A stretch of 61,585 nucleotides of DNA from Chitinispirillaceae bacterium (GTDB lineage: Bacteria > Fibrobacterota > Chitinivibrionia > Chitinivibrionales > Chitinispirillaceae), in assembly GCA_016929595.1 (NCBI GenBank), contig JAFGIN010000038.1, positions 1 to 61,585 of the forward strand, in the 5' to 3' direction. Under the pieces are notes generated by a model. It searched no databases, was not told the origin of the DNA, and saw only the letters and a program-made list of their open reading frames with translations. Each line of letters starts with the position of its first letter. Position 1 is the first letter of the stretch. Below, one piece after another: positions 29,859 to 61,585 of the stretch. The position numbers and the translations under genes are program-made.

Positions 29859-30728
29859 TCATGTAAATACGATAGTTTTATTCTTATAAACCAGTGTCAT
29901 ATGATTGACATGATGCCAGATTGCCCGTGCAAGTACCATCTTTTCAACATCCTTACCCTTTCGTATAAGATCCTGGACAGAATGTTTATGGGTAACCCGT
30001 GCAACATCCTGTTCGATTATCGGGCCGGCATCAAGTTCTGTTGTAACATAATGGGCTGTCGCGCCTATCAATTTCACCCCTCGTTCGAAAGCTGAATGAT
30101 ACGGTTTTGCTCCTGGAAATGCCGGAAGGAAAGAGTGGTGTATATTGATGACCGGTTTTGCAAATGATTTGATCAAATCGCCTGATAACACCTGCATATA
30201 ACGGGCAAGTACCACAAAGTCAATGTCGTATTTTTTTAACAGCTCTAACTCTTTTTGCTCCTGAAGTAATTTATTACTTGTATCAACAGGAACATGATAA
30301 AAATCTATTCCATATAGTTTTGCAACCGATTCCAGAACGGTATGATTACTGATAATCACAGGTATCTCAATTTTCCACTCTTCTGAGACAAAACGAGAGA
30401 GCAGATCATAAAGACAATGAGAAAGTTTTGAAACAAAAATGGCAGCTCTCATTTTTTTCTCTGTGAGCCTGAGTTCTGCATGCATGTTGTAAGAAGTTCC
30501 TATGGAGTATTGAAAGTACTTCATAATTTCCTGTACGGGAATGTTGAAGCCGCCAAGTTCCCATTCAACTCTCATGAAAAAAACATTGTTATCTTTATCA
30601 ACATGCTGGTCCAGATGAATAATATTTCCATTATTTTTATGAAGAAAATCGGTTACCGATGCAACAATACCCCGTTTATCGGGACAATGGATGAGAAGCA
30701 CTGCCGTATGATTTTTTTCTTTTTCCAT
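29859..30728 (-). CDS. purU: Formyltetrahydrofolate deformylase
   Basis: Hydrolyses 10-formyl-tetrahydrofolate to formate and THF, balancing the one-carbon pool. About 289 residues: N-terminal ACT domain (LLIHCPDKRGIVASVTDFLHKNNGNIIHLDQHVD) and a formyltransferase-type catalytic domain with NIHHSFLPAFPGAKPYHSAFERG, IGATAHYVTTELDAGPIIEQD. ATG 30728 is chosen over an upstream TTG. Divergent from the TRAP operon. Its folate role may bear on the methyl-transfer genes at 36-40 kb, but no direct link is visible. Confidence 0.92.
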   Translation of the reverse strand: MEKEKNHTAVLLIHCPDKRGIVASVTDFLHKNNGNIIHLDQHVDKDNNVFFMRVEWELGGFNIPVQEIMKYFQYSIGTSYNMHAELRLTEKKMRAAIFVSKLSHCLYDLLSRFVSEEWKIEIPVIISNHTVLESVAKLYGIDFYHVPVDTSNKLLQEQKELELLKKYDIDFVVLARYMQVLSGDLIKSFAKPVINIHHSFLPAFPGAKPYHSAFERGVKLIGATAHYVTTELDAGPIIEQDVARVTHKHSVQDLIRKGKDVEKMVLARAIWHHVNHMTLVYKNKTIVFT

Positions 30729-30821
30729 ATAGTTCAATCCGGTAAGATTACCATTTCTTTGAATAATACCTTAAATGTCCTCATAATATAAGAAAAGCCC
30801 TTAAAAATTCAATAGAAAAGA

Positions 30822-31257: not shown

Positions 31258-32241
31258 ATGGTAAAAAAAACAGTTCAGTTATCATTTCTTGTGATTGCCC
31301 TGTTGGTTGCGGGATGCAACAAACAGAACGGCACCAGTAGAACAGTCATATTAAAACTTGCTCACAGTCTGGATATCAACCATCCTGTTCACATAGCGAT
31401 GCAATACATGGCTGACAGGGTTCTTGAGAAATCGCATGGGCGTTTGAGTGTCGAGATCTTTCCCAGTGAACAACTCGGAAATGAAAAAGAGTGCATGGAA
31501 GCCCTTCAACTCGGCTTTCTCGCAATGACAAAAGTTTCAGTAGCTCCAATGGAAGGGTTTGTGCCCAGAATGAAGATTTTCGGTATCCCCTACCTTTTCA
31601 GAGACAGTGAACATTACTGGAAGGTGCTCAAAAGTCCACTGGGAAAAGAGCTCCTTCTTGCAGGTCAATCGAATCGTTTACGGGGGCTCTGCTATTATGA
31701 TGCTGGCTCCCGGAGTTTTTATTCTAAAAAAGAGATACACAGCCCCACAGATCTCAAAGGTATGAAAATACGTGTCATGAATAGCGCAATGTCAATGAAG
31801 ATGATCTCCGCCATGGGCGGCTCCCCTACCCCGATGCCCTGGGGTGAACTGTATACATCACTGGAACAGGGTGTCGTTGATGCTGCGGAAAACAATACCC
31901 CATCATATCGTTCTTCGCGTCATTATGAGGTATGCAAATTTTACACACTTGATGATCATTCCAGACTTCCCGATATTTTGGTTATCAGTACAAGAGTTTG
32001 GAATAATCTCACCCCCGAATTCCAGAAAATTTTACAGGAAGCTATTGATGAATCGGTTGAATTTCAGAGGAAAATCTGGGCTGAGGCCGAAGAGAAAGAT
32101 ATGGAAACAGTCAAACAGGCAGGAGTTACGGTAATCGTTCCCGATAAGAAATTGTTTCAGGAATCGGTTCAAAGTGTCTGGAAGGAATTTGAGGGTACTG
32201 AAATCGGTGATTTAATCAAGCAGATACAGGAGGTGCAGTAA
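31258..32241 (+). CDS. dctP: TRAP transporter solute-binding lipoprotein (DctP family)
   Basis: 327 residues. Lipoprotein signal LLVAGCNKQ (Cys about 20), then a DctP-type periplasmic receptor domain: LAHSLDINHPVHIAMQYMADRV, EIFPSEQLGNEKECMEALQLG, GIPYLFRDSEHYWKVLKSP, the sugar-acid-type KIRVMNSAMSMKMISAMGGSPTPMPWGELYTSLEQGVVDAAENN, with the conserved carboxylate-binding Arg in IRVMNS. The PTPM-W-ELYTSL and AENN pattern is common in receptors for uronates and related sugar acids. Two bp before dctQ and upstream of uxaC, so uronate uptake is likely (inference). Lipid anchoring is less usual than a free receptor in TRAP systems. Confidence 0.88.
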   Translation: MVKKTVQLSFLVIALLVAGCNKQNGTSRTVILKLAHSLDINHPVHIAMQYMADRVLEKSHGRLSVEIFPSEQLGNEKECMEALQLGFLAMTKVSVAPMEGFVPRMKIFGIPYLFRDSEHYWKVLKSPLGKELLLAGQSNRLRGLCYYDAGSRSFYSKKEIHSPTDLKGMKIRVMNSAMSMKMISAMGGSPTPMPWGELYTSLEQGVVDAAENNTPSYRSSRHYEVCKFYTLDDHSRLPDILVISTRVWNNLTPEFQKILQEAIDESVEFQRKIWAEAEEKDMETVKQAGVTVIVPDKKLFQESVQSVWKEFEGTEIGDLIKQIQEVQ

Positions 32242-32243
32242 GC

Positions 32244-32810
32244 ATGTTTGGAGTAATTAAAAAATATCTGGATCGCCTCCTGGAATCTCTTGTAATACTC
32301 GTCATGGGGATTCTCGTACTTGATGTCCTCTGGCAGGTTTTTTCACGACTTATCATTAAAAACCCAAGTAAATGGACTGAAGAGCTTGCTGTTTTTATGC
32401 TCATCTGGGTCTCACTACTGGGCGCTGCAATAGCGCTTGGACGCGGAGCACATCTGGGAATTGACTATTTTGTTTCAAAGCTTCCCGCAAAGATTAAAAC
32501 AGTAACCGAAATGACTGTTTTTCTTTTAGTAGCCTTGTTTTCTTTGTTTGTAATGATCATTGGCGGAATAGACCTTGTGATGAGTACACTGCAGCTTAAT
32601 CAGACATCCCCTGCATTAAACGTAAAAATTGGAATAGTGTATATAGCAGTACCTGTCAGTGGTTTTTTTATTGTACTATACTCTGTAATAGCGCTGTTTG
32701 AACGAATCACTGGTAAATCTAAAACAACAATCAGTTCTCCTGCCGATATCGCAAACGAACCGGAGATTATCATTCCGGAAAATTTGACAACCGAAAGGAA
32801 TGCACAGTGA
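32244..32810 (+). CDS. dctQ: TRAP transporter small membrane subunit (DctQ family)
   Basis: 188 residues with four predicted membrane helices (about 14-34, 50-68, 85-108, 130-152). WTEELAVFMLIWVSLLGAAIALGRGAHLGID is the DctQ family signature. The cytoplasmic C-terminal tail is longer than usual and acidic. It ends in a GTGA overlap with dctM. Confidence 0.9.
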   Translation: MFGVIKKYLDRLLESLVILVMGILVLDVLWQVFSRLIIKNPSKWTEELAVFMLIWVSLLGAAIALGRGAHLGIDYFVSKLPAKIKTVTEMTVFLLVALFSLFVMIIGGIDLVMSTLQLNQTSPALNVKIGIVYIAVPVSGFFIVLYSVIALFERITGKSKTTISSPADIANEPEIIIPENLTTERNAQ

Positions 32811-34108
32811 CCTTGCCAGTAATAGTCTTAGTAGTAAGTTTTGCAATCCTTATATTGATCAATGTACCGATTGCATTTTGCATGGGCATCGCGACAGTTC
32901 TGTCATTTTTATCGATGAGCGATCTTCCGGCATTTGTGGCTGTTGCACATGGAATAGCTACAGGTATTGACAGTTTCGCACTTCTTGCAATTCCATTCTT
33001 TGTTCTTTCCGGTCTGCTTATGGCAAACGGAGGAATCGCACGACGTTTGATTGATCTGGCCAATGCGCTTGTTGGTCCATTCAGAGGCGGACTTGCTTTT
33101 GTCAATATTATTACCTGTATGTTTTTTGGGGCAATCGCCGGATCTTCTACAGCAGCTCTCTCCGGTGTCGGAGGTTTCATGATACCTCTCATGAGTCGTT
33201 TCGGATACAATAGGGAATTCAGTACATCAATTACTGTTACAGCATCAACCACCGGTTTACTTATTCCACCAAGTAATATAATGATTGTCTACTCTCTTGC
33301 AACCGGAGGGGGCGTTTCAATTGCAGCGCTTTTTCTTGCGGGATACATTCCAGGAATTCTAATGGGTCTTGGATTGATGGCGGTCAGTGCGTGGATATCA
33401 ATTAAAAACAACTATGGAAAAGGCGAACCAACCTCACTTAAAGCAATTACCACCAGCTTTTTGCGGGCATTGCCTTCACTGTTTCTTATTTTTATCGTAA
33501 TGGGTGGTATTCTTGCTGGCTGGTTTACTCCAACTGAAGCATCGGCCATTGCAGTGCTGTATGCTTTTATACTTGCAGTGTTTGTATACAGAGAAGTTAA
33601 ACTTCCCGACATTCCAAAAATTCTTCTCCAATGCGGCATTACAACATCAGTAGTTTTCCTGCTCATAGGGACCAGTATGGCCATGTCATGGGTACTTGCA
33701 TCAGAACATGTCCCCCAGAATCTTGGAGCTGCCTTACTTAACACATCAGGAAATAAATTTGTTCTTCTACTCCTTATCAACATAATCCTTCTTGCTGTAG
33801 GCTTTTTCATGGACATGACACCAGCGGTCCTTATTTTCACCCCAATCTTTCTCCCCATTCTCCAGCAGATCGGAATACACCCGTTACATTTTGGAATCAT
33901 AATGATTATGAACCTCTGCATAGGTCTTTGTACCCCGCCAGTAGGCACCTGCCTGTTTCTTGGATGCAGTATTGGTGGGACCACTGTGTCGAAACTGATG
34001 CGCTATATTATACCATTTTTCATTACCATGGTGGTTATACTGCTGATCACGATGTATGTTCCATCATTGAGCATGTGGTTACCTGACAAACTTGGACTTT
34101 TAAAATGA
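32807..34108 (+). CDS. dctM: TRAP transporter large permease subunit (DctM family)
   Basis: 433 residues of about 12 hydrophobic segments; the ion-coupled transport subunit of the TRAP system. Blocks AIPFFVLSGLLMANGGIARRLIDLANALVGPFRGGL, CMFFGAIAGSSTAALSGVGGFMIPLM, STTGLLIPPSNIMIVYS and GLCTPPVGTCLFLGC are typical DctM. A GTG start overlaps the dctQ stop by four bases. The TGA stop at 34106 is the first repeat base triplet of a heptamer array. Confidence 0.93.
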   Translation: MTLPVIVLVVSFAILILINVPIAFCMGIATVLSFLSMSDLPAFVAVAHGIATGIDSFALLAIPFFVLSGLLMANGGIARRLIDLANALVGPFRGGLAFVNIITCMFFGAIAGSSTAALSGVGGFMIPLMSRFGYNREFSTSITVTASTTGLLIPPSNIMIVYSLATGGGVSIAALFLAGYIPGILMGLGLMAVSAWISIKNNYGKGEPTSLKAITTSFLRALPSLFLIFIVMGGILAGWFTPTEASAIAVLYAFILAVFVYREVKLPDIPKILLQCGITTSVVFLLIGTSMAMSWVLASEHVPQNLGAALLNTSGNKFVLLLLINIILLAVGFFMDMTPAVLIFTPIFLPILQQIGIHPLHFGIIMIMNLCIGLCTPPVGTCLFLGCSIGGTTVSKLMRYIIPFFITMVVILLITMYVPSLSMWLPDKLGLLK

Positions 34109-34620: not shown

Positions 34621-36033
34621 ATGTCATTTTACAATCTTCATCCCGACAGGTTTTTTGATCCTGATTCTGATGTTCGCAACTATGCTGGATCAATTTATGA
34701 TACGATAAAGAATCTTCCGATTATCAGCCCGCATGGTCATGTTGATCCGAAAATTTTTGCGGAAAACAAACCGTTTCCAAACCCCACGGAACTTTTTATC
34801 ATTCCCGATCACTACCTTTTCAGAATGCTCTATTCACAGGGAATCCCCCTAGAATCACTTGGAATTCCACGGATTGATGGAGGTCTTTCGGAATGTGATC
34901 CGAAAAAGATCTGGAAGCTTTTTTCTGAACATTATTACCTGTTTAATGGTACACCAACAGGAGTCTGGCTTGATTATGAATTTAATCAGATATTTGACAT
35001 AAAGGAAAAACCTGATGCATCAAACGCTGAGAGAATTTATGATGAATTGAACGAAAAAATCAATTCTCCGGAATTTCTGCCCCGCACACTTTTTGAGCGT
35101 TTTAATATAGAGGTCCTGGCAACTACCGACACAGCACTTGACACCCTTGACCAGCACAAAGTAATCCGCACTTCCGGCTGGCAGGGGAGAATTATTCCAT
35201 CGTTCAGACCCGATACCCTGACCGATATCAGCAATCCCGACTGGGTTGCAAATATTAAAAAGTTAGGGGATCTTACCAATCGTACAATTCAGAACTACCG
35301 CGATTATATTGATGCGCTCCGTGAACGTCGTCATTACTTTATCCATATGGGTGCGAAGGCTTCCGACCATGGCGTTTTCGAACCATTCACAAAAGAACTG
35401 CCATTGCATGAAGCGGAAGTAATATTTACACGTGCATTAAAACAAACCGCCACCCCTTCGGATGTGCGACTTTTTACTGCACACATGCTTATGCAGATGG
35501 CAGAGATGAGTACTGAAGACGGTCTTGTCATGCAGATCCATCCGGGATGCTTTAGAAACCATAACAAACAGCTTTTTAAGCAGTTCGGGTTCGACAAAGG
35601 AAACGATATACCTGTTGCGACAGAGTATACGTCAAATCTTCAGGAACTGCTTAACCGTTATGGAAACAACACCAATCTGACAATAATACTCTTCACACTT
35701 GATGAGTCAGTCTATTCACGTGAATTAGCGCCTCTGGCCGGGCACTATCCGGCACTGAAACTCGGTCCAGCATGGTGGTTTAATGACAGCATCCAGGGTA
35801 TTACTCGCTATCGTCAACACGTTACCGAAACTACCGGTTTCTACAATACGGTCGGATTTAACGATGATACCCGGGCGTTTGTCTCGATACCGGCACGGCA
35901 TGATGTTGCACGGCGGGTTGATGCAAATTACCTGGCGGGTCTTGTCGCACGACATATTATCAGTATTGATGAGGCGATAGTTATTGCGGAAGATCTGACC
36001 CGGACTCTTGTTAAACGTGCCTATAAACTTTGA
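34621..36033 (+). CDS. uxaC: Glucuronate (uronate) isomerase
   Basis: Isomerises D-glucuronate to D-fructuronate (and galacturonate to tagaturonate), the first intracellular step of uronate breakdown. 470 residues, the usual length. Amidohydrolase-fold features: ISPHGHVDPKIFAEN (metal-binding His pair), VLATTDTALDTLDQHK, IIPSFRPD, FIHMGAKASDHG, MQIHPGCFRNHN, and LKLGPAWWFNDS. Product fructuronate is passed to the uxuB/uxuA products encoded at 46.8-48.7 kb. It sits between the TRAP transporter and the corrinoid cluster, each with its own spacer. Confidence 0.95.
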   Translation: MSFYNLHPDRFFDPDSDVRNYAGSIYDTIKNLPIISPHGHVDPKIFAENKPFPNPTELFIIPDHYLFRMLYSQGIPLESLGIPRIDGGLSECDPKKIWKLFSEHYYLFNGTPTGVWLDYEFNQIFDIKEKPDASNAERIYDELNEKINSPEFLPRTLFERFNIEVLATTDTALDTLDQHKVIRTSGWQGRIIPSFRPDTLTDISNPDWVANIKKLGDLTNRTIQNYRDYIDALRERRHYFIHMGAKASDHGVFEPFTKELPLHEAEVIFTRALKQTATPSDVRLFTAHMLMQMAEMSTEDGLVMQIHPGCFRNHNKQLFKQFGFDKGNDIPVATEYTSNLQELLNRYGNNTNLTIILFTLDESVYSRELAPLAGHYPALKLGPAWWFNDSIQGITRYRQHVTETTGFYNTVGFNDDTRAFVSIPARHDVARRVDANYLAGLVARHIISIDEAIVIAEDLTRTLVKRAYKL

Positions 36034-36202: not shown

Positions 36203-36871
36203 ATGAGTGAACTTATTGAAAAAATTGGTATTTGTGTAGAGCGGGGAAAAGTGAATAAAGCCTCGCCGTTTCCTCCCGATATGAAAGGGCTTGATGGAGC
36301 TGATGAATACACAAAACTTGCTATTGAGGCGAAAACCAGTGCAGATGCAATTTTGCAGGCATGCAATGATGGAATGCAGCGAGTCGGTGAAAAGTTTGGG
36401 AAAAACCTTGTGTTTGTTCCTGAGTTGCTTATGGCTGCAAAGGCTATGCATGCAGTGATGGCTCATCTCAAACCGTTTTTTCAATCCGGTACGGTGAAAA
36501 CAAAAGGGACATTCATTCTTGGCACCGTTGCAGGTGATCTGCATGACATTGGCAAGAATCTGGTCTCTATGGTTATAGAGGGCAACGGATGGAAAGTCAT
36601 CGACCTTGGTGTTGATGTAAAAGCCCCCAGATTTATTCAGAAAATCAGTGAAAACCCTGGATGTGTTGTAGGCTTAAGCGCATTACTGACCACAACCATA
36701 GCAAACATGGCAAATACAATCAAAGAGATAAAAACAACATCTCCAACAACGAAGGTTATCGTTGGTGGAGCACCACTTACAGCCGGCAGTGCACAGGAGA
36801 TGGGGGCTGATGGATACGCCAGGGACCCGCAGGCTGCAGTCGCATTGCTCAATTCTATTGGGGTTAGCTGA
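36203..36871 (+). CDS. Corrinoid (B12)-binding methyl-carrier protein
   Basis: 222 residues of the MtaC/MtbC/MetH-core type. A helical cap domain (about 10-95; MQRVGEKFGKNLVFVPELLMAAKAMHAVM) precedes a Rossmann B12 domain (about 101-222) with the base-off motif D112-L-H-D-I-G (His114 should ligate cobalt), VIDLGVDVKAPRFI, VGLSALLTTTIANM and VGGAPLTAGSAQEMGADGYARD. It acts as methyl shuttle between two methyltransferases. GAGGG precedes ATG. Its stop overlaps the next start (TGATG), and three genes are so coupled. No cobalamin riboswitch is apparent in the 170-bp leader. Confidence 0.92.
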   Translation: MSELIEKIGICVERGKVNKASPFPPDMKGLDGADEYTKLAIEAKTSADAILQACNDGMQRVGEKFGKNLVFVPELLMAAKAMHAVMAHLKPFFQSGTVKTKGTFILGTVAGDLHDIGKNLVSMVIEGNGWKVIDLGVDVKAPRFIQKISENPGCVVGLSALLTTTIANMANTIKEIKTTSPTTKVIVGGAPLTAGSAQEMGADGYARDPQAAVALLNSIGVS

Positions 36872-37752
36872 TGAAATCATTGCTCAAAGTATTGGATACC
36901 GGTAAGATACTCATTTCTGATGGGGCCTGGGGCACGTTACTTCAGGGACGTGGGCTTCAACCGGGTGAGTGTCCGGAATTGTGGAACATTTCCCACCGTA
37001 CAGATGTGTTGTCGATTGCCCGAAGCTATGTCGATGCAGGTGCTGATATCATTCTTACCAACAGTTTTGGCGGAAGCCCATCAAAGCTCAAACACTATGA
37101 ACTCGACGATCGTACTGCAGAGATTAACCAGGCAGCAGCGGCAATCTCAAGAGAAGCTTCCGGTGAAAAAGGATTTGTACTTGGATCTATGGGACCTACC
37201 GGTGTCATTCTTATGATGGGTGAAGTTCCAGAAGAAACACTTTACGAGGGATTCTGTATCCAGGCAAAGGCTCTTGAGAAAGGTGGGGTTGATGGCCTCT
37301 GTATAGAAACAATGTCCGCCCTGGATGAAGCCTGCCTTGCTGTCCGCGCTGTAAAAGAGTCAACATCTCTTGAAATCGCATGTACGTTTACCTTTGAAAG
37401 AACTGTTTCCGGTGATTTCCGGACTATGATGGGAGTATCCCCTTCGGAAATTGTCGGTGCGCTTATCGAAGCCGGAGCTGATATCATAGGAACAAATTGT
37501 GGCAATGGTTTTGACGGGATGATTGACATCGTTAAGGAGATCCGGCAGATAGATTCGAAGATCCCGGTTCTGGTTCATGCTAATGCGGGAAAACCAGTCG
37601 TACAGGATGGAAAAACAGTATTTCCGGAAACGCCGGAGATGATGGCAGCTAAAGTTGATAAACTCATTCATGTTGGTGCCAACATAATCGGTGGATGCTG
37701 CGGAACTACTCCTGACCATATCCGCGCACTGACAAAAGCGATAGTGCACTGA
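36871..37752 (+). CDS. Homocysteine S-methyltransferase-like protein (MetH homocysteine-domain type)
   Basis: 293 residues of the zinc homocysteine methyltransferase barrel, as in the first MetH module and betaine-homocysteine methyltransferase. ISDGAWGTLLQGRGLQPGECPE, LTNSFGGSP, and the zinc ligands Cys210 (IGTNCGNG), Cys276 and Cys277 (GGCCGTTPDHI). It should take a methyl group from the corrinoid protein encoded just upstream and give methionine. It is stand-alone: no methyl-THF-binding, B12 or activation module is fused. Start and stop overlap both neighbours by TGATG. Confidence 0.9.
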   Translation: MKSLLKVLDTGKILISDGAWGTLLQGRGLQPGECPELWNISHRTDVLSIARSYVDAGADIILTNSFGGSPSKLKHYELDDRTAEINQAAAAISREASGEKGFVLGSMGPTGVILMMGEVPEETLYEGFCIQAKALEKGGVDGLCIETMSALDEACLAVRAVKESTSLEIACTFTFERTVSGDFRTMMGVSPSEIVGALIEAGADIIGTNCGNGFDGMIDIVKEIRQIDSKIPVLVHANAGKPVVQDGKTVFPETPEMMAAKVDKLIHVGANIIGGCCGTTPDHIRALTKAIVH

Positions 37753-38495
37753 TGAAGTTCAATTTTCCGATTACAGAACTTGAAAGCGATACCTTTCTCA
37801 TTCAGCCGGATTCATCAGTCATCGATTTATCCATCGATGAAATAGCTGAAGAATCAGGGTATGAACGTGGAATGATTCCCGATTATTTCAGAGATATTAT
37901 TGCTGAATCTATTGCGCAATGTAGATCAATCTCCAGGCCGGTATGTGGATACCGCATTCTGTCAGTAAATAAGGAGCATTCCAGTCCGGAAAGCATCGCG
38001 ATTGGAGATATCCGCTTTAATTGTCAAAAGATTGTGAAAGCCCGCCTGAATAACGCCGACCAGGTCGCTATCTTTTCGTGTACTATCGGTTCTGAAATGG
38101 AAACGTACGCAAGCCGATGCTTTGAAGAGGGTGATGCGGTAAAAGGCCACTTTGCAGATGTTATAGCATCAGCAGCGGTAGAATTTTTAACAGATCTCCT
38201 GCACAACCACATTGCTGAATCCATACTAACGCAACAGCTCAATGTCACCAATCGTTTCAGTCCGGGATATTGCGGGTGGCCGGTATCGGAACAGAAAACA
38301 CTATTCTCCTTTTTTCCTAATGACTTTTGTGGTATAAAAGTCACCGATTCATCACTGATGCTCCCTAAAAAATCAACCAGTGGAATCATTGGAATCGGAT
38401 CATCAGTTAAACGGGAACCGTACACCTGTAACCGATGTTCACAGAAAGAGTGTACGTACCGGATGTATAGGGCGAGCAGGAGCGGTGGGCGGTAA
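37752..38495 (+). CDS. MetH activation-domain-like protein
   Basis: 247 residues resembling the reactivation module of B12-dependent methionine synthase, which uses S-adenosylmethionine to remethylate oxidised cob(II)alamin. RFSPGYCGWPVSEQKTLF (about 168-185) matches the MetH R-x-x-P-G-Y motif; GIKVTDSSLMLPKKSTSGIIG follows. The first half has AIFSCTIGSEMETYA and GHFADVIASAAVEFLTD, shared with stand-alone relatives. It ends with a C-x2-C-x4-C motif (C226, C229, C234) that might bind a metal or cluster, which MetH lacks. It serves as a possible alternative to RamA-type ATP activators. The stop codon begins a heptamer array. Confidence 0.82.
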   Translation: MKFNFPITELESDTFLIQPDSSVIDLSIDEIAEESGYERGMIPDYFRDIIAESIAQCRSISRPVCGYRILSVNKEHSSPESIAIGDIRFNCQKIVKARLNNADQVAIFSCTIGSEMETYASRCFEEGDAVKGHFADVIASAAVEFLTDLLHNHIAESILTQQLNVTNRFSPGYCGWPVSEQKTLFSFFPNDFCGIKVTDSSLMLPKKSTSGIIGIGSSVKREPYTCNRCSQKECTYRMYRASRSGGR

Positions 38496-38580
38496 ATAAA
38501 TGAATTATAAATAAATGAATTATAAATTATAAATTATAAATGATAAATGATAAATGATAGAGGATAGAGGATAGAGGTTA
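38493..38580 (+). repeat. Stop-codon heptamer array (TAAATGA/TAAATTA/TAGAGGA)
   Basis: It starts exactly with the TAA stop of the activation-domain gene. Two 15-bp units are followed by seven-base units TAAATTA, TAAATGA and TAGAGGA. Here the leading triplet of units is TAA or TAG instead of TGA, yet is still a stop codon on the coding strand. Confidence 0.9.
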
Positions 38581-38639
38581 GCTTGGATGTGCTATTAACG
38601 GTCTTATAATTATCGGCAGCACCTTTTTCGATGGGTATT

Positions 38640-38730
38640 TATCGGGGTCGCTGTCGGTATCGGGATCGATTCTCAATTATTGTGTCTTTCGATACCGATT
38701 CCGAAATGAAAATCTGTGCATTGTATTATT
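38640..38730. repeat. Dispersed hairpin repeat, copy B (CGATACC/GGTATCG type)
   Basis: ATCGGGGTCGCTGTCGGTAT leads to a CTCAATTATTGTGTCT loop region and then CGATACCGATTCCGA with tail GTGCATTGTATTATT. Same arrangement and sequence as 14641-14751 with fewer CGATAC units. Arms are complementary. Confidence 0.8.
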
Positions 38731-38855
38731 AAACAGATAATAATGCGCTAGAAGACAGAGGAACGTCCGGACGATCCGATTAGCTATTGGCTTTATATTA
38801 ACAGCAGACAACAAACTGACAATTGTATGGAAATGTCAATACAAGAAAGGTATAT

Positions 38856-39881
38856 ATGACTGATAAACAATGGGAACTGCTTAAAAGAGTGGTCAATGGT
38901 GAAACGATTAGCCCGCTTCCGGTCGGTTTTATCGTGGATTGTCCCTGGCTGCCAAACTGGTATGGATGTTCTATCCTGGATTATTTTACCAATGATGAAC
39001 TTTGGCTTTCTGCAAATTTAAAGGCGATGAACGATTTTCCTGATGTCATGTTTCTCCCGGGTTTCTGGTCTGAATATGGCATGTGTACAGAACCATCAGC
39101 ATTTGGCGCCCGCTGCTCCTTTCCGGCAAATGAGTTTCCACATGCACACCGGGTGATCAGTTCTGCTGATGAAATCAATTCTGTTGAAGTACCAAACCCT
39201 GCTACCGATGGATTACTTCCATTTGTACTGAATCGTCTGAAACTTGCTCAACCAAAAATTGAAGCGGCAGGGCACAAGATCCGTTTCGCAGTTGCACGCG
39301 GACCGCTCAATATTGCAAGCTATCTTATGGGATCAACGGAACTCCTGACCACCATGATGATGGAGCCTGACAAAGTCCATACGTTCATGAAGACAATAAC
39401 AACATTTCTCAAGAACTGGTTAAACCTTCAGCGTGAGACGTTTCCATCAATTGATGGTATCCTTCTATTGGATGATATCATTGGTTTCCTCGGTGAAGAC
39501 GAGTTCCGTACTTTTGGTCTCCCCTATTTCAAAGAACTCTTTGACCCGTCAGTACAGATCCGTTTTTTACACAATGATGCGCCCTGCAGCACCTCGGCGC
39601 CATTGCTGCCGAAGATGAATGTAAACCTATTTAACATGGGATTTGATGTCTCGCTCAAAAACCTCAAAGAGATTACTCATAATAAGGTTACGCTACTTGG
39701 AAATCTTCCTCCCCGTGATGTGCTTGCAAAGGGCGACGCCATCGATATAAAAGAAAAAACAATCAACATGCTCGCAACACTTGAGGATAAAAGCAGAATC
39801 ATAGTATCATGCGGTGGTGGAATGCCTCCCGGAGTAACATCAGAGAGTATTAATCTGTTTGTTAAAACTGTACAAGGTTAA
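38856..39881 (+). CDS. UroD-fold methyltransferase-like protein
   Basis: About 341 residues of the uroporphyrinogen decarboxylase superfamily, in the branch that includes methyltransferases MtaA, MtbA and CmuA rather than haem-pathway HemE. ILLLDDIIGFLGEDEF, LPYFKELFD, IRFLHNDAPC (His239 of the metal-type motif), LLGNLPPRDVLAKGD and IVSCGGGMPPGVTSESI. The usual H-x-C zinc motif reads H-N-D here, with the downstream Cys kept (about 319). It likely moves methyl groups onto or off the neighbouring corrinoid protein; the donor is unknown. ATG 38856 with AAAGG upstream is preferred to 38823. A 360-bp gap with repeats separates it from the trio. Confidence 0.82.
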   Translation: MTDKQWELLKRVVNGETISPLPVGFIVDCPWLPNWYGCSILDYFTNDELWLSANLKAMNDFPDVMFLPGFWSEYGMCTEPSAFGARCSFPANEFPHAHRVISSADEINSVEVPNPATDGLLPFVLNRLKLAQPKIEAAGHKIRFAVARGPLNIASYLMGSTELLTTMMMEPDKVHTFMKTITTFLKNWLNLQRETFPSIDGILLLDDIIGFLGEDEFRTFGLPYFKELFDPSVQIRFLHNDAPCSTSAPLLPKMNVNLFNMGFDVSLKNLKEITHNKVTLLGNLPPRDVLAKGDAIDIKEKTINMLATLEDKSRIIVSCGGGMPPGVTSESINLFVKTVQG

Positions 39882-44887: not shown

Positions 44888-45910
44888 CTACCTCTGCACC
44901 CGCCCCGACCCGTCACCACCCATTAACGCTTTCACTTCACTCACCGTAACGTGATTGGAGTCGCCATCAATGGAGTGTTTGAGACAGGATGCCGCAACGG
45001 CAAACTCGATTGTGTCGCGTGAACTGTAGCCGTTTATTAAACCATAAATCAGACCGGCTCCGAAGGAATCTCCTCCGCCCACGCGATCAACAATATGAAT
45101 GGGGTAATTTTTTGAGAAAAAGAACTCTTCGCCATCGTAGAGCATGGCAGCCCAGTTATTGTCTGATGCAGAGATGCTGCTGCGAAGGGTGATTGCTACC
45201 TTTTTGAAGCCGAACCTTTTTTTCAGTTCCGCCGCAACACGCTTATACCCCTCATGACTGAGAGTTCCTCCGGTAATGTTGGTGTTTGGGGCCTTGATAC
45301 CAAAAACTTTTTCTGCATCTTCCTCATTTGCAATGCAGATATCAACATATTTCATAAGCCCACCCATTACCGTACCGGTTTTTTCACTTGACCAGAGATT
45401 TTTACGGAAGTTGAGATCACAGCTGACAGTCAGCCCTTTCTCTTTTGCGATCCTGCATGCTTCCAGCGTAATCTCTGCGACATTATCACCAAGAGCCGGC
45501 GTAATTCCGGTAAAGTGAAACCACTGCGCCCCATCGAAAATGGCATCCCAGTTGAAATCAGCTTTTGACGCCTGAGAAACCGAAGAGTACTTACGGTCGT
45601 AAACAACCTTTGATGCACGCTGTGATGCTCCTTTTTCTATGAAATAGATGCCAAGACGTTCACCACCACGAACAATATGTCCGGTAAACACGCCATATCT
45701 ACGCAATTCGTTCAACGCAGATTGACCAATCGGATTATCGGGCAGCTTGGTCACATACGCGGCATCTACGCCAAAATTCGCAAGCGAAATCGAAACATTA
45801 GCTTCTCCCCCACCATAAACAGCATCAAACGAGCTCGCCTGTGTAAACCTTGCATATCCCGGTGGAGCCAGACGCAACATTATTTCACCAAAACAAACTA
45901 CTTTTGACAT
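44888..45910 (-). CDS. kdgK: 2-keto-3-deoxygluconate kinase
   Basis: Phosphorylates KDG to KDPG. 340 residues of the PfkB/ribokinase family: CFGEIMLRLAPPGYARFTQA, VYGGGEANVSISLANFG, VSCDLNFRKNLWS, and the catalytic anion-hole GGGDSFGAGLIYGL with Asp as base. Tagatose- or fructokinase are alternatives in this family, but the adjacent aldolase and mannonate genes make KDG the likely substrate. Last gene of the uxuA-uxuB-eda-kdgK run, 190 bp after eda with tandem repeats between. Confidence 0.9.
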   Translation of the reverse strand: MSKVVCFGEIMLRLAPPGYARFTQASSFDAVYGGGEANVSISLANFGVDAAYVTKLPDNPIGQSALNELRRYGVFTGHIVRGGERLGIYFIEKGASQRASKVVYDRKYSSVSQASKADFNWDAIFDGAQWFHFTGITPALGDNVAEITLEACRIAKEKGLTVSCDLNFRKNLWSSEKTGTVMGGLMKYVDICIANEEDAEKVFGIKAPNTNITGGTLSHEGYKRVAAELKKRFGFKKVAITLRSSISASDNNWAAMLYDGEEFFFSKNYPIHIVDRVGGGDSFGAGLIYGLINGYSSRDTIEFAVAASCLKHSIDGDSNHVTVSEVKALMGGDGSGRVQR

Positions 45911-46096: not shown

Positions 46097-46741
46097 TCAC
46101 TTCCCGCGCGCAGCCTTTACCTTCTCGACAAACTGTTTTCCGATTGCAGTTATTGATGCGAAATCACCTTTTTTAGCACCTGCGGTAAGATTTCCTCCGA
46201 TACCAACAGCAACACTGCCTGCTTTAATCCAGTCATTCACGTTATCAAGACTTACCCCGCCGGTAGGCATCAGCTTAACCTGGGGTAACGGGCCTTTTAT
46301 CGCTTTGATGATCGCTGGACCAAACAATTCCGCCGGAAAGATTTTAATGATATCCGCCCCGGCTTCCATACATTCTACGACCTCTTTGATGGTCATTGCG
46401 CCCGGCATGCAGGGTATCTGATACCTGTTGCACAATGCCACAACATCTTTGTTGAGACATGGACTGATAATATATTGTGCTCCCGCAAGAATTGCCGTAC
46501 GGGCAGTTTCCGTATCAAGAACAGTTCCGGCACCGATGAGAATCTCACCTGTATTGTATGTTTCAGCAAGCTTTTTTATTACATCAGCAGCACCGGGAAC
46601 AGTAAAAGTTACTTCCACTGCAGCAATACCGGCATCTGCACACGCCTGCGCAACTTTCAATGCCAGATCAGCAGTCTCAGCCCTGACAATTGCAACTACG
46701 CCACAATCACCTATTTTCTGAATTACTTTATTTTTGTCCAT
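46097..46741 (-). CDS. eda: KDPG (2-keto-3-deoxy-6-phosphogluconate) aldolase
   Basis: Splits KDPG into pyruvate and glyceraldehyde 3-phosphate, closing the uronate route. About 214 residues: AVEVTFTVPGA (catalytic Glu region), IGAGTVLDTETA, QYIISPCLNKDV, GADIIKIFPAELFGP with the Schiff-base Lys in IKIFPAE, and LMPTGGVSLDN. Two adjacent ATGs follow GAGGAG; the second has the better spacing. It follows the SDR gene by about 20 bp on the same strand. Confidence 0.93.
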   Translation of the reverse strand: MDKNKVIQKIGDCGVVAIVRAETADLALKVAQACADAGIAAVEVTFTVPGAADVIKKLAETYNTGEILIGAGTVLDTETARTAILAGAQYIISPCLNKDVVALCNRYQIPCMPGAMTIKEVVECMEAGADIIKIFPAELFGPAIIKAIKGPLPQVKLMPTGGVSLDNVNDWIKAGSVAVGIGGNLTAGAKKGDFASITAIGKQFVEKVKAARGK

Positions 46742-46761
46742 CATTACACTCCTCTAAAATT

Positions 46762-47607
46762 TTACACACCAGAATACGCCATAAATCCGCCATCAACCGG
46801 AACAACAACCCCATTGACAAAACCTGATGCATCCTGATCAATAAGCCATGTCAGCGTTCCAATAAGATCGTCGGGTACTCCGAAACGACGCATCGGTGTA
46901 TGAGCAATAACCTTCTCTGCGCGAGGAGTAAGAGAACCATCCGCGTTTGTCATCAGCGTACGGTTCTGCTCTGTCAGGAAAAATCCCGGCGCGATCGCAT
47001 TGACCCTTATTCCCACATCAGCGAGGTGAACGGCAAGCCACTGCGTAAAATTATTGATAGCTGCCTTTGCAGCACTGTACGCGGCGACTTTGGTCATCGG
47101 ACAGGGTGCACTCATTGATGAAATATTTATGACACACGCACCGCTTCTGCCGACCATCTGTGTTGCAAAAACCTGTGTGGGAAGAAATGTCCCCATGAAA
47201 TTCAGATTGAACACGAACTGAAATCCGTCAGCGGAGAGATCAAAAAATGTCGTGATTTTTGAATCATGGTTTTTCAGATCGTCTAATGTCAATGTTTCTT
47301 TTGTAGTGTTACCTTTTGGATGGTTTCCTCCGGCACCATTAAGAAGTACATCACATGGACCAAGCTGCATTCTGACTGTTTCTGCTGCAGCTGCCACACT
47401 CTCTTTATCAAGCACATTACATGTCACCGCGATAGCAGTTCCCCCCTGAGATCTGATCTGACTGGCTACGACTTCAGCTTTCTCGGGATTGAGATCCAGA
47501 ACCGCGACTTTCATCTTTAACCGAGCCATTGACCGTGCAAAATTACTGCACAGTATTCCACCGCCGCCGGTAACGACAGCAACTTTACCTTCAAGACTTT
47601 TCGACAT
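46762..47607 (-). CDS. uxuB: SDR-type D-mannonate oxidoreductase (fructuronate reductase)
   Basis: Reduces D-fructuronate to D-mannonate. 281 residues of the short-chain dehydrogenase fold: cofactor loop VVTGGGGILCSNFAR, LNGAGGNHPKGN, catalytic Ser in NISSMSAP, YSAAKAA with Tyr and Lys, and NAIAPGFFLTEQNR. The GGNHPKGNT segment and the placement between mannonate dehydratase and KDPG aldolase support the assignment; other SDR polyol dehydrogenases are possible. This is the B. subtilis-like SDR form, unrelated to E. coli UxuB. Confidence 0.87.
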   Translation of the reverse strand: MSKSLEGKVAVVTGGGGILCSNFARSMARLKMKVAVLDLNPEKAEVVASQIRSQGGTAIAVTCNVLDKESVAAAAETVRMQLGPCDVLLNGAGGNHPKGNTTKETLTLDDLKNHDSKITTFFDLSADGFQFVFNLNFMGTFLPTQVFATQMVGRSGACVINISSMSAPCPMTKVAAYSAAKAAINNFTQWLAVHLADVGIRVNAIAPGFFLTEQNRTLMTNADGSLTPRAEKVIAHTPMRRFGVPDDLIGTLTWLIDQDASGFVNGVVVPVDGGFMAYSGV

Positions 47608-47612
47608 TCTAT

Positions 47613-48692
47613 TTAACCCCTGTTATGTAAACGACTGATAGCATCCCATAATCCATGTATATAGGTAACTCCCAGCGCACGGTCATAAAGACCATAGCCG
47701 GGTCTCCCCTTTTCATCCCATATCATCCGACCATGATCAGGCCGCACCGGACCGTCAAAGCCAGTATCGTAGTACGCCTTTACAATCTCAAACAAATCAA
47801 GTGATCCCCGATCATCCTTGTGCGCGATCTCCCAGAATAATCCCGGTGAGTCGATCTTAATGTTTCTGATATGAGCGAAATGAATTCTCCCCATTTTCCC
47901 GAAATGACGTACAATTTCCGGTATGTTATTATCAGAATTCGCGCCAAGCGACCCACTGCACAATGTCAATCCATTATAGGGATTATCAACAAGCTTGACT
48001 ATTCTTTCAAGATTAGCTTTCGATGTAGTGATCCTGGGTAGTCCGAACACCGGCCAGGGTGGATCATCAGGATGAATTGCCATTTTTATTCCACACTCCT
48101 GTGCGACGGGTATAATCGCTTTAAGAAAGTATTGAAGATTTGCAAAGAGTTTTTCCTCGTCAACATCTTTATACAAATCAAAAAGATCCCTGATAGTCGC
48201 AAGGCGTTCTTTTTCCCATCCTGGTAAGATAAATCCCCCGGAACCGTTCTCAATCTCCCTGATGAGCTCCTCGGGTTTGATGTTACGGATCACATTTTCA
48301 TCATAAAAAAGCACCGCTGATTCATCCTGCAGTTTCCAGTCCAGCACGGTCCTCATCCAGTCAAAAACCGGCATAAAATTGTAACAGACAACAGTAACTC
48401 CCGCTTTTGAGAGATTTCTCAATGTTGTGCAGTAATTGTCAATATACCTGTCCCGGCTGGGCAATCCCAGCTTTATATCTTCATGAACATTTACACTCTC
48501 TACTGTTTTAAAAAGAAGACCGGCACTCTCAATCTCATTTTTCAGAGCCATTATCTCCTCTACCGGCCACACCTCGCCAACTGGTATATGAAATAAAGCA
48601 CCAACAATGTTTTGCATCCCCGGTATCTGCCGTATATACCGCAGAGAAATCGCATCATTTTTACTCCCGAACCAGCGAAACGACATCAGCAT
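47613..48692 (-). CDS. uxuA: Mannonate dehydratase
   Basis: Dehydrates D-mannonate to 2-keto-3-deoxygluconate. 359 residues of the UxuA TIM barrel: [23 protein letters not shown] at the N-terminus, [29 protein letters not shown] (metal ligands), [12 protein letters not shown] and [16 protein letters not shown] precedes the first ATG by nine bases. First gene of the minus-strand uronate operon, five bp before uxuB. Confidence 0.95.
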
Positions 48693-59373: not shown

Positions 59374-61179
59374 TCACCGTGGCATTGACCAGTCGATCCA
59401 TTTTGTGAAATCGTTCAGTTTATCAAAACTTCCGTCATTTTTAAAAAAGTTTGTTTTTACGGATGTATCACCAAAAAGGAATCTTTTAACAAAAGCGTTA
59501 TACGCTTCTTTATCCTGAGCAGTTGTACCGCTGCAGTGACCATGATTATACATGGTTATTCCAATGTTATCTTTAACACCTAAAAACTCAAAAACTGTTT
59601 GTGCGGCAGATGCGGAAGTCCAGCAACAGGTGTTGCAGTTCCAGCTGTTTTTGCTGCCTTCAACCATAAATATTCCCCGGGGAGCGCAAATCGCAGCAAG
59701 TGTGTGAGCGTCAACAGGTAATTTATTCAAATTGTTGTTTCTGGCAAACTGATCGAAGTTTGGTGAAAGCCAGGCGTTTTCACCGATAATCTGTGATGCA
59801 GTCTGGCATCCATCCGGATGTGCAGATTTATTTTTATTCTCGACATCTGCTATTCTCCAGCTGCTGATACCTCCCGATCCACCTTCCATTGGAAGTACCA
59901 GTGCAATTCGTTCGTCAAAGGCACCACAAACCATGGCGCCTTTCCCATCACGTGAACATCCAATAACTGAACAATGGAGAGGATCGATTTTCGCTTCGGG
60001 CAGCAGTTCCAATGCATCAAGAATACGACTTACCCCCCACGCCCAGGCCATCATGGCACCAGCGGAATGGGTACTTCCATATAAATCGTAAAACTTTCCT
60101 TTACCTCTGCTCGAAGTGTTACTTTGCTGGGCAATCTCATTATGCATATAGTTGATTCTGGCGCACCCTGCAGGTGTAGCACCAAAATGTCCAAATGTGG
60201 AACCACCTAAGGCAATGTAACCTGGATAAGGAGCTTTACCTGATGATGGAACTGTTATACTTATATTGAACGATATCGATTTTCCTTTTTCTTCGCAAGT
60301 AATTGAAATGGTATTATTCTTGAGAGTTGCAGTAACCTTTTCAGGTTTCGGAGGTTTCTCACCAAAGGTGGTCGCCTGAAGAAGAGAGCTGAGATACGCC
60401 CGCTGTTCACACCATTGACTTTTTTGGGTCATCCGGGTGCCATCCTTCATCTTGAAAGGATCGGGAAGTTTTGTATTTGCTGTGTAACTGGATGGTGATG
60501 ATGCCGCAAGTGCCGTAACACAGCCAGCTTCTTTAGCTTCTAATACTTCCGGAGTCAGGGTGATTATCATATCTTCTTTAGTATAACTGTCAATTGCTAC
60601 CATTGCCGTTTTATAGCCCGCTTTTTCAACTTTTATTGTATCAACAACTGTTGCAGCTACTCCCAACAATTTTATACCTTTATCACCTGCAGAATTCTGT
60701 TGCCTTTGAGAACCGATATATACTTCATTTTCTGTACTGATAAGTTTATAAGTAGCTTTCAATCCATCGATATTGATCTGGACAATGTAACATCCAGCTG
60801 ATAATTGTGGCAAGTGAAAATCTCCATTACCTGGATTGTTAAGAGAAATTGATTCTAATCGTCGGCCATTTGAAGAGAATAATTCGATATATCCGTTATT
60901 AATTTTTGATGCTATTGAAAAACACAAAAGATTGGCTTTCATTTCAAATTTTATTATGTTCTGAATGGATGATGGTGTTAAACGAACGGCCAGAGCTTTT
61001 AAAAAAAACTCTCCGTTACTATTAGTTACTTCAGATACATTTTTTTCTTTTACCAGGCTGACTTTTGCACCCTCGATGCCTACAGTTCCATCGGTAACTA
61101 TACCCTTGATAGAGATTTCTGAAACTGCAAATAAGCTGGTAAAACAAAATGTTGTGATGATAATAATTCGTTGTAACAT
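59374..61179 (-). CDS. Secreted CE15 glucuronoyl esterase with N-terminal modules
   Basis: About 601 residues. Hydrolyses esters of 4-O-methylglucuronic acid in xylan with lignin alcohols. Signal peptide (1-20); carboxypeptidase-regulatory-like domain (about 24-66, GIVTDGTVGIEGAKVSLV); an unusual internal module (about 75-210) that looks like a sorting-domain beta-sandwich (YIELFSSNGRRLESISL...AGCYIVQIN) continued by TIKVEKAGYKTAMV; then the CE15 alpha/beta hydrolase (about 225-600) with nucleophile Ser410 in GCSRDGKGA, PMEGGSGG and the late NHGHCSGT His. Sits after the second GH9; no sorting module at its very C-terminus. Confidence 0.88.
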   Translation of the reverse strand: MLQRIIIITTFCFTSLFAVSEISIKGIVTDGTVGIEGAKVSLVKEKNVSEVTNSNGEFFLKALAVRLTPSSIQNIIKFEMKANLLCFSIASKINNGYIELFSSNGRRLESISLNNPGNGDFHLPQLSAGCYIVQINIDGLKATYKLISTENEVYIGSQRQQNSAGDKGIKLLGVAATVVDTIKVEKAGYKTAMVAIDSYTKEDMIITLTPEVLEAKEAGCVTALAASSPSSYTANTKLPDPFKMKDGTRMTQKSQWCEQRAYLSSLLQATTFGEKPPKPEKVTATLKNNTISITCEEKGKSISFNISITVPSSGKAPYPGYIALGGSTFGHFGATPAGCARINYMHNEIAQQSNTSSRGKGKFYDLYGSTHSAGAMMAWAWGVSRILDALELLPEAKIDPLHCSVIGCSRDGKGAMVCGAFDERIALVLPMEGGSGGISSWRIADVENKNKSAHPDGCQTASQIIGENAWLSPNFDQFARNNNLNKLPVDAHTLAAICAPRGIFMVEGSKNSWNCNTCCWTSASAAQTVFEFLGVKDNIGITMYNHGHCSGTTAQDKEAYNAFVKRFLFGDTSVKTNFFKNDGSFDKLNDFTKWIDWSMPR

Positions 61180-61585
61180 CATTTTCTCCTCTATTACGCA
61201 AGCAAAGTTTTTTAATATTTTTGCAATTAATTTAGCTAGTGTTTTTAATAATATATGAAAAACGAAGTAAAAATGTATTAGAAATTATTTTAAAATTAGA
61301 GCTATAATCTAAAAATGTATCAATTGTTTTATCTCCGAAGGCGGCCAGACAATTTTTTTTACATTTTAACTGGAAATACTACATTAATAAAAGATCCTGG
61401 GCTATGTAGATCATTTGTAAAAACTTTTTCAGTTGCATGGACGAACATTTTACCGGCACATAAATCTGATTACGGCACCAAAGCTCCATACTATTAAATT
61501 TTTGATGGCGTAGAAAATAAAAGACCTTAAAAAAATAGCCTCTTTTTACGATAAACAGAATAGGTCAAAACAAACATCGTAGAAA
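61180..61585. other. AT-rich region to the window end
   Basis: About 400 bp with the CE15 promoter. A 60-codon plus-strand frame (61315-61497) has no ribosome site and no recognised product, so it is not called. Nothing else is seen. Confidence 0.35.

Follow-up and report, generated by a model that had tools for sequence, protein, structure and literature searches.

A candidate corrinoid-dependent system for demethylating 4-O-methylglucuronate in a Chitinispirillaceae bacterium

We analyzed a 61,585-nucleotide stretch of DNA from a Chitinispirillaceae bacterium (assembly GCA_016929595.1, contig JAFGIN010000038.1), hereafter the window. It contains four consecutive plus-strand genes coding for a corrinoid carrier, a homocysteine methyltransferase, a protein that resembles the activation domain of methionine synthase (MetH), and a methyltransferase with the fold of uroporphyrinogen decarboxylase. 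The first three genes are called the trio, and the fourth gene and its product are called UroD. We describe these genes, their linkage to genes for xylan breakdown in other organisms, and a hypothesis in which UroD initiates removal of the methyl group from 4-O-methylglucuronate. Loci, genomes and contigs, where they must be told apart, carry L, G and C numbers.

Four genes of a corrinoid module and their host genome

The original prediction, made from the sequence alone, described three genes overlapping at TGATG and followed by a gene for a UroD-fold protein. The three open reading frames (36203-36871, 36871-37752 and 37752-38495) proved to be real, with TGATG at both junctions, and the Pfam domains and key residues were confirmed. 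The first gene of the trio (36203..36871) codes for a 222-amino-acid (aa) corrinoid (B12) carrier that matches PF02310 and PF02607 and has the motif DLHDIG at residue 112. Its top NCBIfam model is of the MtgC type (162 bits, versus 125 bits for MetH). Among solved structures, 1y80 is the nearest, and a trimethylamine carrier and 4jgi also rank ahead of MetH. Judged by such comparisons, the carrier has more in common with the corrinoid proteins of methylotrophy and of O-demethylases than with MetH.

The second gene (36871..37752) codes for a 293-aa homocysteine S-methyltransferase (SMT; PF02574, 229 bits). Its nearest solved structure is the homocysteine module of T. maritima MetH (1q7m, E=3e-50), and it has the three zinc cysteines of a MetH-type homocysteine module, C210, C276 and C277. 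The third gene (37752..38495) codes for a 247-aa stand-alone MetH-activation-like protein, which has a partial Met_synt_B12 match (PF02965), carries the RxxPGY motif as RFSPGY, and finds its nearest solved structure in a methionine synthase entry (1j6r). The C terminus of this protein has a CxxCxxxxC motif that 22 of 23 homologues share, and the lone exception is truncated by a contig end. This motif is possibly a metal or electron-transfer site, which would be unexpected in a MetH activation domain.

Consistent with the original prediction, Pfam detected no pterin domain (PF00809), which would bind methyl-tetrahydrofolate (methyl-THF), in any of the four cluster proteins. A methyl-carrier:THF methyltransferase (MT II) is likewise missing from the cluster, and none was recognized among the annotated neighbors. 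A scan of the gap between the trio and UroD found no terminator-like site on the plus strand. AT-rich short tandem repeats lie between the trio and UroD, at 38491-38585.

UroD (38856..39881, plus strand; PF01208, 120 bits) is a 341-aa candidate 4-O-methylglucuronate:corrinoid methyltransferase. Its start is most likely the ATG at 38856 rather than the TTG at 38823, because nearly all close relatives begin with MTxxQW or MTxxHW and because AGAAAGG lies upstream. The predicted model of the protein (pLDDT 93) has its highest TM-scores (0.79) with the methylcobalamin:CoM methyltransferase MtaA (4ay7/4ay8), and HemE structures lead by E-value. Both the URO-D domain and the fold are those of the UroD superfamily of corrinoid methyltransferases. 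We rejected the possibility that the protein is HemE (uroporphyrinogen decarboxylase) itself, given a TIGR01464 score of 64.2 bits versus a cut-off of 302.95. The MtaA/CmuA model TIGR01463 also scores below its cut-off (53.5 bits; cut-off 235.4).

His239, Asn240 and Asp241 do not vary across 50 sequences, and nearly all close relatives keep Cys319. (His239, Asp241 and Cys319 in this 341-aa numbering are H250, D252 and C330 in the longer reading frame.) The protein thus has an invariant His-Asn-Asp and one Cys in place of the His-Cys-Cys zinc site of the S-methyltransferase branch (MtaA/MtbA, Mlp), and His-x-Asp where S-methyltransferases carry His-x-Cys, with the correspondence to MtaA ligands taken from alignment spans and not residue by residue. 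UroD-fold sulfur methyltransferases use His-Cys-Cys, and O-demethylases of this fold swap a Cys for a carboxylate or lose it (PMC10418091). The site in UroD is therefore of a pattern that appears compatible with an O-methyl substrate.

The host genome (6.6 Mb, 95% complete) was searched for other methionine synthases and pterin-domain proteins. It has an intact MetH (a 1244-aa frame on contig C115). A second MetH-like pair is found on contig C43 (L241:5609-9705), in which an 801-aa protein (SMT-pterin-B12) overlaps a 563-aa protein that has a partial homocysteine-like (SMT) domain and a pterin domain without a B12 domain; a 224-aa protein is encoded upstream. The remaining pterin domain in the genome is in a FolP-sized protein on contig C34, and no stand-alone pterin methyltransferase was found besides it. 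Because both the intact MetH and the second MetH-like pair are present, the trio is an extra system, and we rejected the explanation that it is a dismantled housekeeping MetH. The original description of a dismantled synthase is only loosely right: the modules are homologous and split, but an intact MetH exists elsewhere and the carrier is nearer to methylotrophic types. One further UroD-fold protein in the genome is a weak match.

Linkage to xylan and uronate genes in several phyla

A scan of GTDB species genomes with the SMT as the query yielded 80 trio loci. The trio is adjoined by a close relative of UroD (60-74% identity) in members of Fibrobacterota, Ignavibacteria and Calditrichota. In Ignavibacteria, Calditrichaceae and Chitinispirillaceae, UroDs that are 67-73% identical to the protein in the window directly follow the trio, and in two Bacteroidota more divergent UroDs (60-61% identity) adjoin trio genes. 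Within 2 kb of UroD, the corrinoid gene is found in 25 loci, the SMT in 24 and the activation protein in 22. The carrier is thus the most constant trio member beside UroD, and such an adjacent carrier gene is characteristic of the corrinoid methyltransferases of this superfamily.

The UroD-trio loci are rich in genes for the breakdown of xylan, including xylanases. Neighbors include GH115, GH43, GH10, GH8, GH67, GH9, GH88, esterases, LacI regulators, UxuA and mannonate oxidoreductase. The usual order is LacI, GH8, GH115, GH43, carrier, SMT, activation protein, UroD and esterase. In the Chitinispirillia locus L201, the order is UxaC, trio, UroD, GH67 and 6-phosphogluconate dehydrogenase. GH115 and GH67 alternate next to the same UroD. 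These families are unrelated, and their common activity is to free (4-O-methyl)glucuronate from xylan. Linkage of UroD to an alpha-glucuronidase of either family is the arrangement of a 4-O-methylglucuronate utilization locus.

Co-occurrence was assessed in 294 genomes of the class Ignavibacteria, of which 29 have UroD, 37 have the trio SMT and 33 have GH115. GH115 occurs in 26 of the 29 genomes with UroD versus 7 of the 265 without it (p = 1e-27), and the trio SMT in 22/29 versus 15/265 (p = 1e-17). None of the 15 genomes with the SMT and without UroD has GH115; therefore, UroD, and not the trio, tracks the substrate. GH115 lies within about 7 kb of UroD on the same contig in 15 of the 29 genomes, for which we estimate an expectation of about 0.1. 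In Fibrobacterota, all four UroD genomes have GH67, compared with 7 of 164 others (p = 1e-5). Because the genomes are related, all these p-values are inflated, and independence is better argued from the three phyla, the two glucuronidase families and the differing gene orders. The co-occurrence with GH115 and GH67 strongly favors 4-O-methylglucuronate as the putative methyl donor.

The trio might instead be an ordinary split methionine synthase that acts on methyl-THF by way of some other protein, with UroD as an unrelated neighbor. Split MetH systems do exist (PMC12478193), and the genome has pterin-domain proteins of its own, including the 563-aa protein that lacks a B12 domain. We nonetheless consider this explanation quite unlikely, given the intact MetH in the same genome, the tight adjacency of UroD and the trio in several phyla, and the presence of a UroD-fold gene within 5 kb in at least 30 of the 80 trio loci. 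Moreover, no pterin gene accompanies the trio in the loci examined. A conserved stand-alone pterin methyltransferase, or loss of linkage to UroD and uronate genes, was what the original prediction named as grounds for abandoning it; the former is absent from these loci, and the neighborhood comparison found the latter linkage conserved across three phyla.

Many of the UroD-fold genes near trios are very unlike the one in the window. In L027/L031 and L021/L022, for example, the UroDs that accompany the trio have an identity of about 30% or less. The trio looks like a general homocysteine-accepting module for which UroD sets the donor. Four loci (L027, L031, L132 and L145) share trio-like genes, a different UroD (29-32% identical), an activation-like protein and a large, conserved companion gene of 519-618 aa; this system probably serves another methyl donor.

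Three further features of these loci concern their carbohydrate genes. A divergent GH67 subgroup (about 900 aa) occurs in Chitinispirillia (L240:5214-11489, L201:7395-14060 and L128), with a conserved order of GH67, two genes without a Pfam match (about 200 and 430-490 aa) and 6-phosphogluconate dehydrogenase. The only GH67 alpha-glucuronidase gene of the host genome is on contig C188. Next come two genes of unknown function and one for 6-phosphogluconate dehydrogenase, and these three match those that come after UroD-GH67 in G020/G021. Also, a GH88-family gene, whose family acts on unsaturated uronates, often adjoins UroD (for example, L184:3837-5108, whose cluster is represented in about 11 loci).

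A proposed route from methylated glucuronate to methionine

We propose, with a probability of roughly 0.6, that the four genes make up a corrinoid-dependent 4-O-methylglucuronate O-demethylase system that hands the methyl group to homocysteine. We also lean toward the broader view, held to be somewhat better than an even chance, that this is an undescribed oxygen-independent sugar-ether demethylase coupling the breakdown of hardwood xylan to methionine, and one case of a general module with varied UroD-fold donor enzymes. Hardwood xylan carries 4-O-methylglucuronate as its main acid side chain, and the sugar-acid pathway downstream of its release requires removal of the methyl group. In the open-access literature, we found no paper tying 4-O-methylglucuronate to a demethylase or a corrinoid enzyme, which is weak evidence of novelty.

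We infer a scheme together with its substrate, direction of transfer, metal, acceptor and reactivation chemistry. It would begin with the freeing of 4-O-methyl-D-glucuronate by alpha-glucuronidases of family GH67 or GH115, along with a glucuronoyl esterase, and this sugar acid would then be imported. UroD would bind it as the free acid or as an aldouronic acid, and would activate the 4-O-methyl ether, probably via a His/Asp/Cys metal site. Transfer of the methyl group to the Co(I) form of the carrier would give methyl-Co(III) and glucuronate, and the zinc SMT would then pass the methyl group to homocysteine, yielding methionine and regenerating Co(I). Carrier that reaches the Co(II) state would presumably be rescued by the activation-like protein through reductive methylation with S-adenosylmethionine. 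The freed glucuronate would proceed through UxaC, mannonate oxidoreductase, UxuA, KDG kinase and KDPG aldolase.

The window covers all steps from UxaC to KDPG aldolase, plus a glucuronoyl esterase. Upstream of the trio on the plus strand are a TRAP transporter (31258..34108; DctP, a 188-aa reading frame of small-subunit size, and DctM; PF03480, PF06808), which is a probable uronate importer, and the glucuronate isomerase UxaC (34621..36033; PF02614; NF002794, 545 bits, cut-off 387). On the minus strand are KDG kinase (44888..45910; PfkB family, PF00294), whose best models, for KHG/KDPG aldolase-kinase fusions and KDG kinase, score below their cut-offs; KDPG aldolase (46097..46744; PF01081, and NF005119 above its cut-off); D-mannonate oxidoreductase (46762..47607; NF006132, 435 bits, cut-off 281), a short-chain dehydrogenase/reductase (SDR); UxuA, a mannonate dehydratase (47613..48692; PF03786, TIGR00695); and a CE15-type glucuronoyl esterase (59374..61182; PF22244). 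The setting of uxaC, TRAP and CE15 genes that was originally reported is therefore correct. A gene for PurU (formyl-THF deformylase) is close to UroD or the trio in three genomes (29859-30737 in the window, L182:8461-9321 and, by similarity only, L019:1156-2031), where it may balance folates when methyl groups arrive from another source.

Two donors were suggested on the basis of this setting: 4-O-methylglucuronate, which the co-occurrence favors, and methanol derived from pectin, which is not favored. In the latter case, the substrate of UroD would not be a sugar ether but methanol that comes from methyl-esterified pectin or acid sugars. TRAP transporters and UxaC do also serve pectin breakdown, as families. 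However, the annotated neighbors include neither a pectin lyase nor a pectin methylesterase but consist of xylan enzymes and alpha-glucuronidases, and we regard methanol as a very improbable substrate.

Several findings weigh against demethylation of 4-O-methylglucuronate by this module. The gap between the trio and UroD is longer in the window (360 bp) than in relatives, and GH67 and UroD are on different contigs of the host genome. In G018, the trio and GH67 are present, but UroD was not found at a threshold of E<=1e-40. Only four pairs could be used in a pair test corrected for phylogeny, which are too few independent comparisons. By our own estimate, the methyl supply from xylan probably exceeds the demand for methionine, and a sink for the surplus is therefore expected. 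A Bacteroidota branch of UroDs (48-54% identity) has different neighbors, and we therefore restrict the claim about the substrate to the closer UroD group.

Further such findings concern the acceptor. The carrier and UroD occur without the SMT and activation protein in L126 (8538-10343), and the carrier, activation protein and UroD occur without the SMT in L174 (7180-9945). Seven UroDs form a subclade, nested in the trio-bearing UroDs (support 89), in which none has an adjacent trio; in one of the seven (L176), UroD is at the start of a contig, and its upstream genes are outside view. The trio SMT is not detectable in six of the seven genomes, and extended regions around three of these UroD genes have no carrier, SMT or activation gene. 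Active-site residues are retained in the subclade. In five of the seven, orthologous SDRs with 63-74% mutual identity are encoded directly upstream of UroD (L172:8024-8911, L184:1588-2355, L187:5181-6017, L189:10171-10953 and L192:8668-9435). Because of this subclade, L126 and L174, the acceptor may vary.

The replacement of the trio by an SDR in one subclade, as well as the frequent adjacency of GH88-family genes, could be explained if UroD acts on 4-O-methylglucuronate by other chemistry, for example with a dehydrogenase that releases methanol by elimination, such that the corrinoid module is one downstream option. This too seems rather improbable. The SDR subclade is nested in trio-bearing UroDs, and having the trio therefore looks like the ancestral state; no other trio member is found at UroD as constantly as the corrinoid gene; His and Asp are kept in both SDR-type and trio-type proteins; and the nearest fold by TM-score is that of a corrinoid methyltransferase.

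Finally, feruloyl-type esterases are also present in UroD loci. UroD could thus demethylate ferulate or another methoxylated aromatic compound freed by esterases, as VdmB, OdmB or MtvB do, with homocysteine still the acceptor. UroD-fold aromatic O-demethylases are known (PMC13222342), and PF00756 esterases adjoin several UroD loci. However, GH115 or GH67 is found in most UroD genomes and loci with the esterase family are far less numerous, Chitinispirillia loci pass from UroD to GH67 with no esterase between, and the recurrent partners are uronate catabolism genes. Also, CdmB, a relative of the aromatic O-demethylases, is among the weakest solved-structure matches of UroD. An aromatic substrate is therefore unlikely, and linkage and co-occurrence support the original interpretation of 4-O-methylglucuronate as the donor.

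If this proposal is true, the four genes supply a missing step in the anaerobic degradation of xylan and represent a corrinoid system that acts on an aliphatic sugar ether. Methionine would be made without spending methyl-folate, and the UroD gene would be a marker for organisms that use methylated glucuronoxylan.

Comparison with known methyl-transfer systems

Elements of the proposed system are found in several others. The three-component O-demethylases of acetogens (MtvABC, OdmABCD, VdmB) also combine a UroD-fold donor transferase with a small corrinoid carrier, and this carrier is of the type found in the window. However, they act on aromatic methyl ethers, with THF as acceptor and an ATP-dependent activase, whereas we predict a sugar-acid ether, homocysteine and a MetH-type activation protein. 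The Mtg system of marine bacteria (MtgBCDE) joins demethylation of glycine betaine to methionine synthesis by using a carrier common to the non-folate donor and homocysteine (PMC12478193). It resembles the four genes in having a stand-alone carrier and homocysteine module, a non-folate donor and separate reactivation modules (PMC12478193), and differs in its donor enzyme (pfam06253, MttB/MtgB type), its quaternary amine substrate and the inclusion of a pterin module.

Type 1 mlp clusters, described by Kountz and Balskus, likewise have UroD-fold methyltransferases and a corrinoid protein, lack a folate methyltransferase, and have a proposed link to methionine (PMC10418091). They encode a Ram/RACE activase along with two or three S/Se-methyltransferases of the His-Cys-Cys kind, in contrast to the one His-x-Asp UroD and the MetH-type activation protein in the window. 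We rejected membership in this type, which involves at least two Mlps, a corrinoid protein and Ram, given one UroD, no Ram in the cluster and a His-Asp site. MetH itself has homologous homocysteine, B12 and activation modules; in the window these are separate proteins, with no pterin module and with a carrier nearer to methylotrophic ones. Finally, the cytochrome P450 6-O-methylgalactose demethylase of porphyran degraders also removes a methyl group from a polysaccharide sugar (PMC10033563). That enzyme is an oxidative monooxygenase that yields formaldehyde, whereas the system proposed here would be independent of oxygen and would retain the methyl group.

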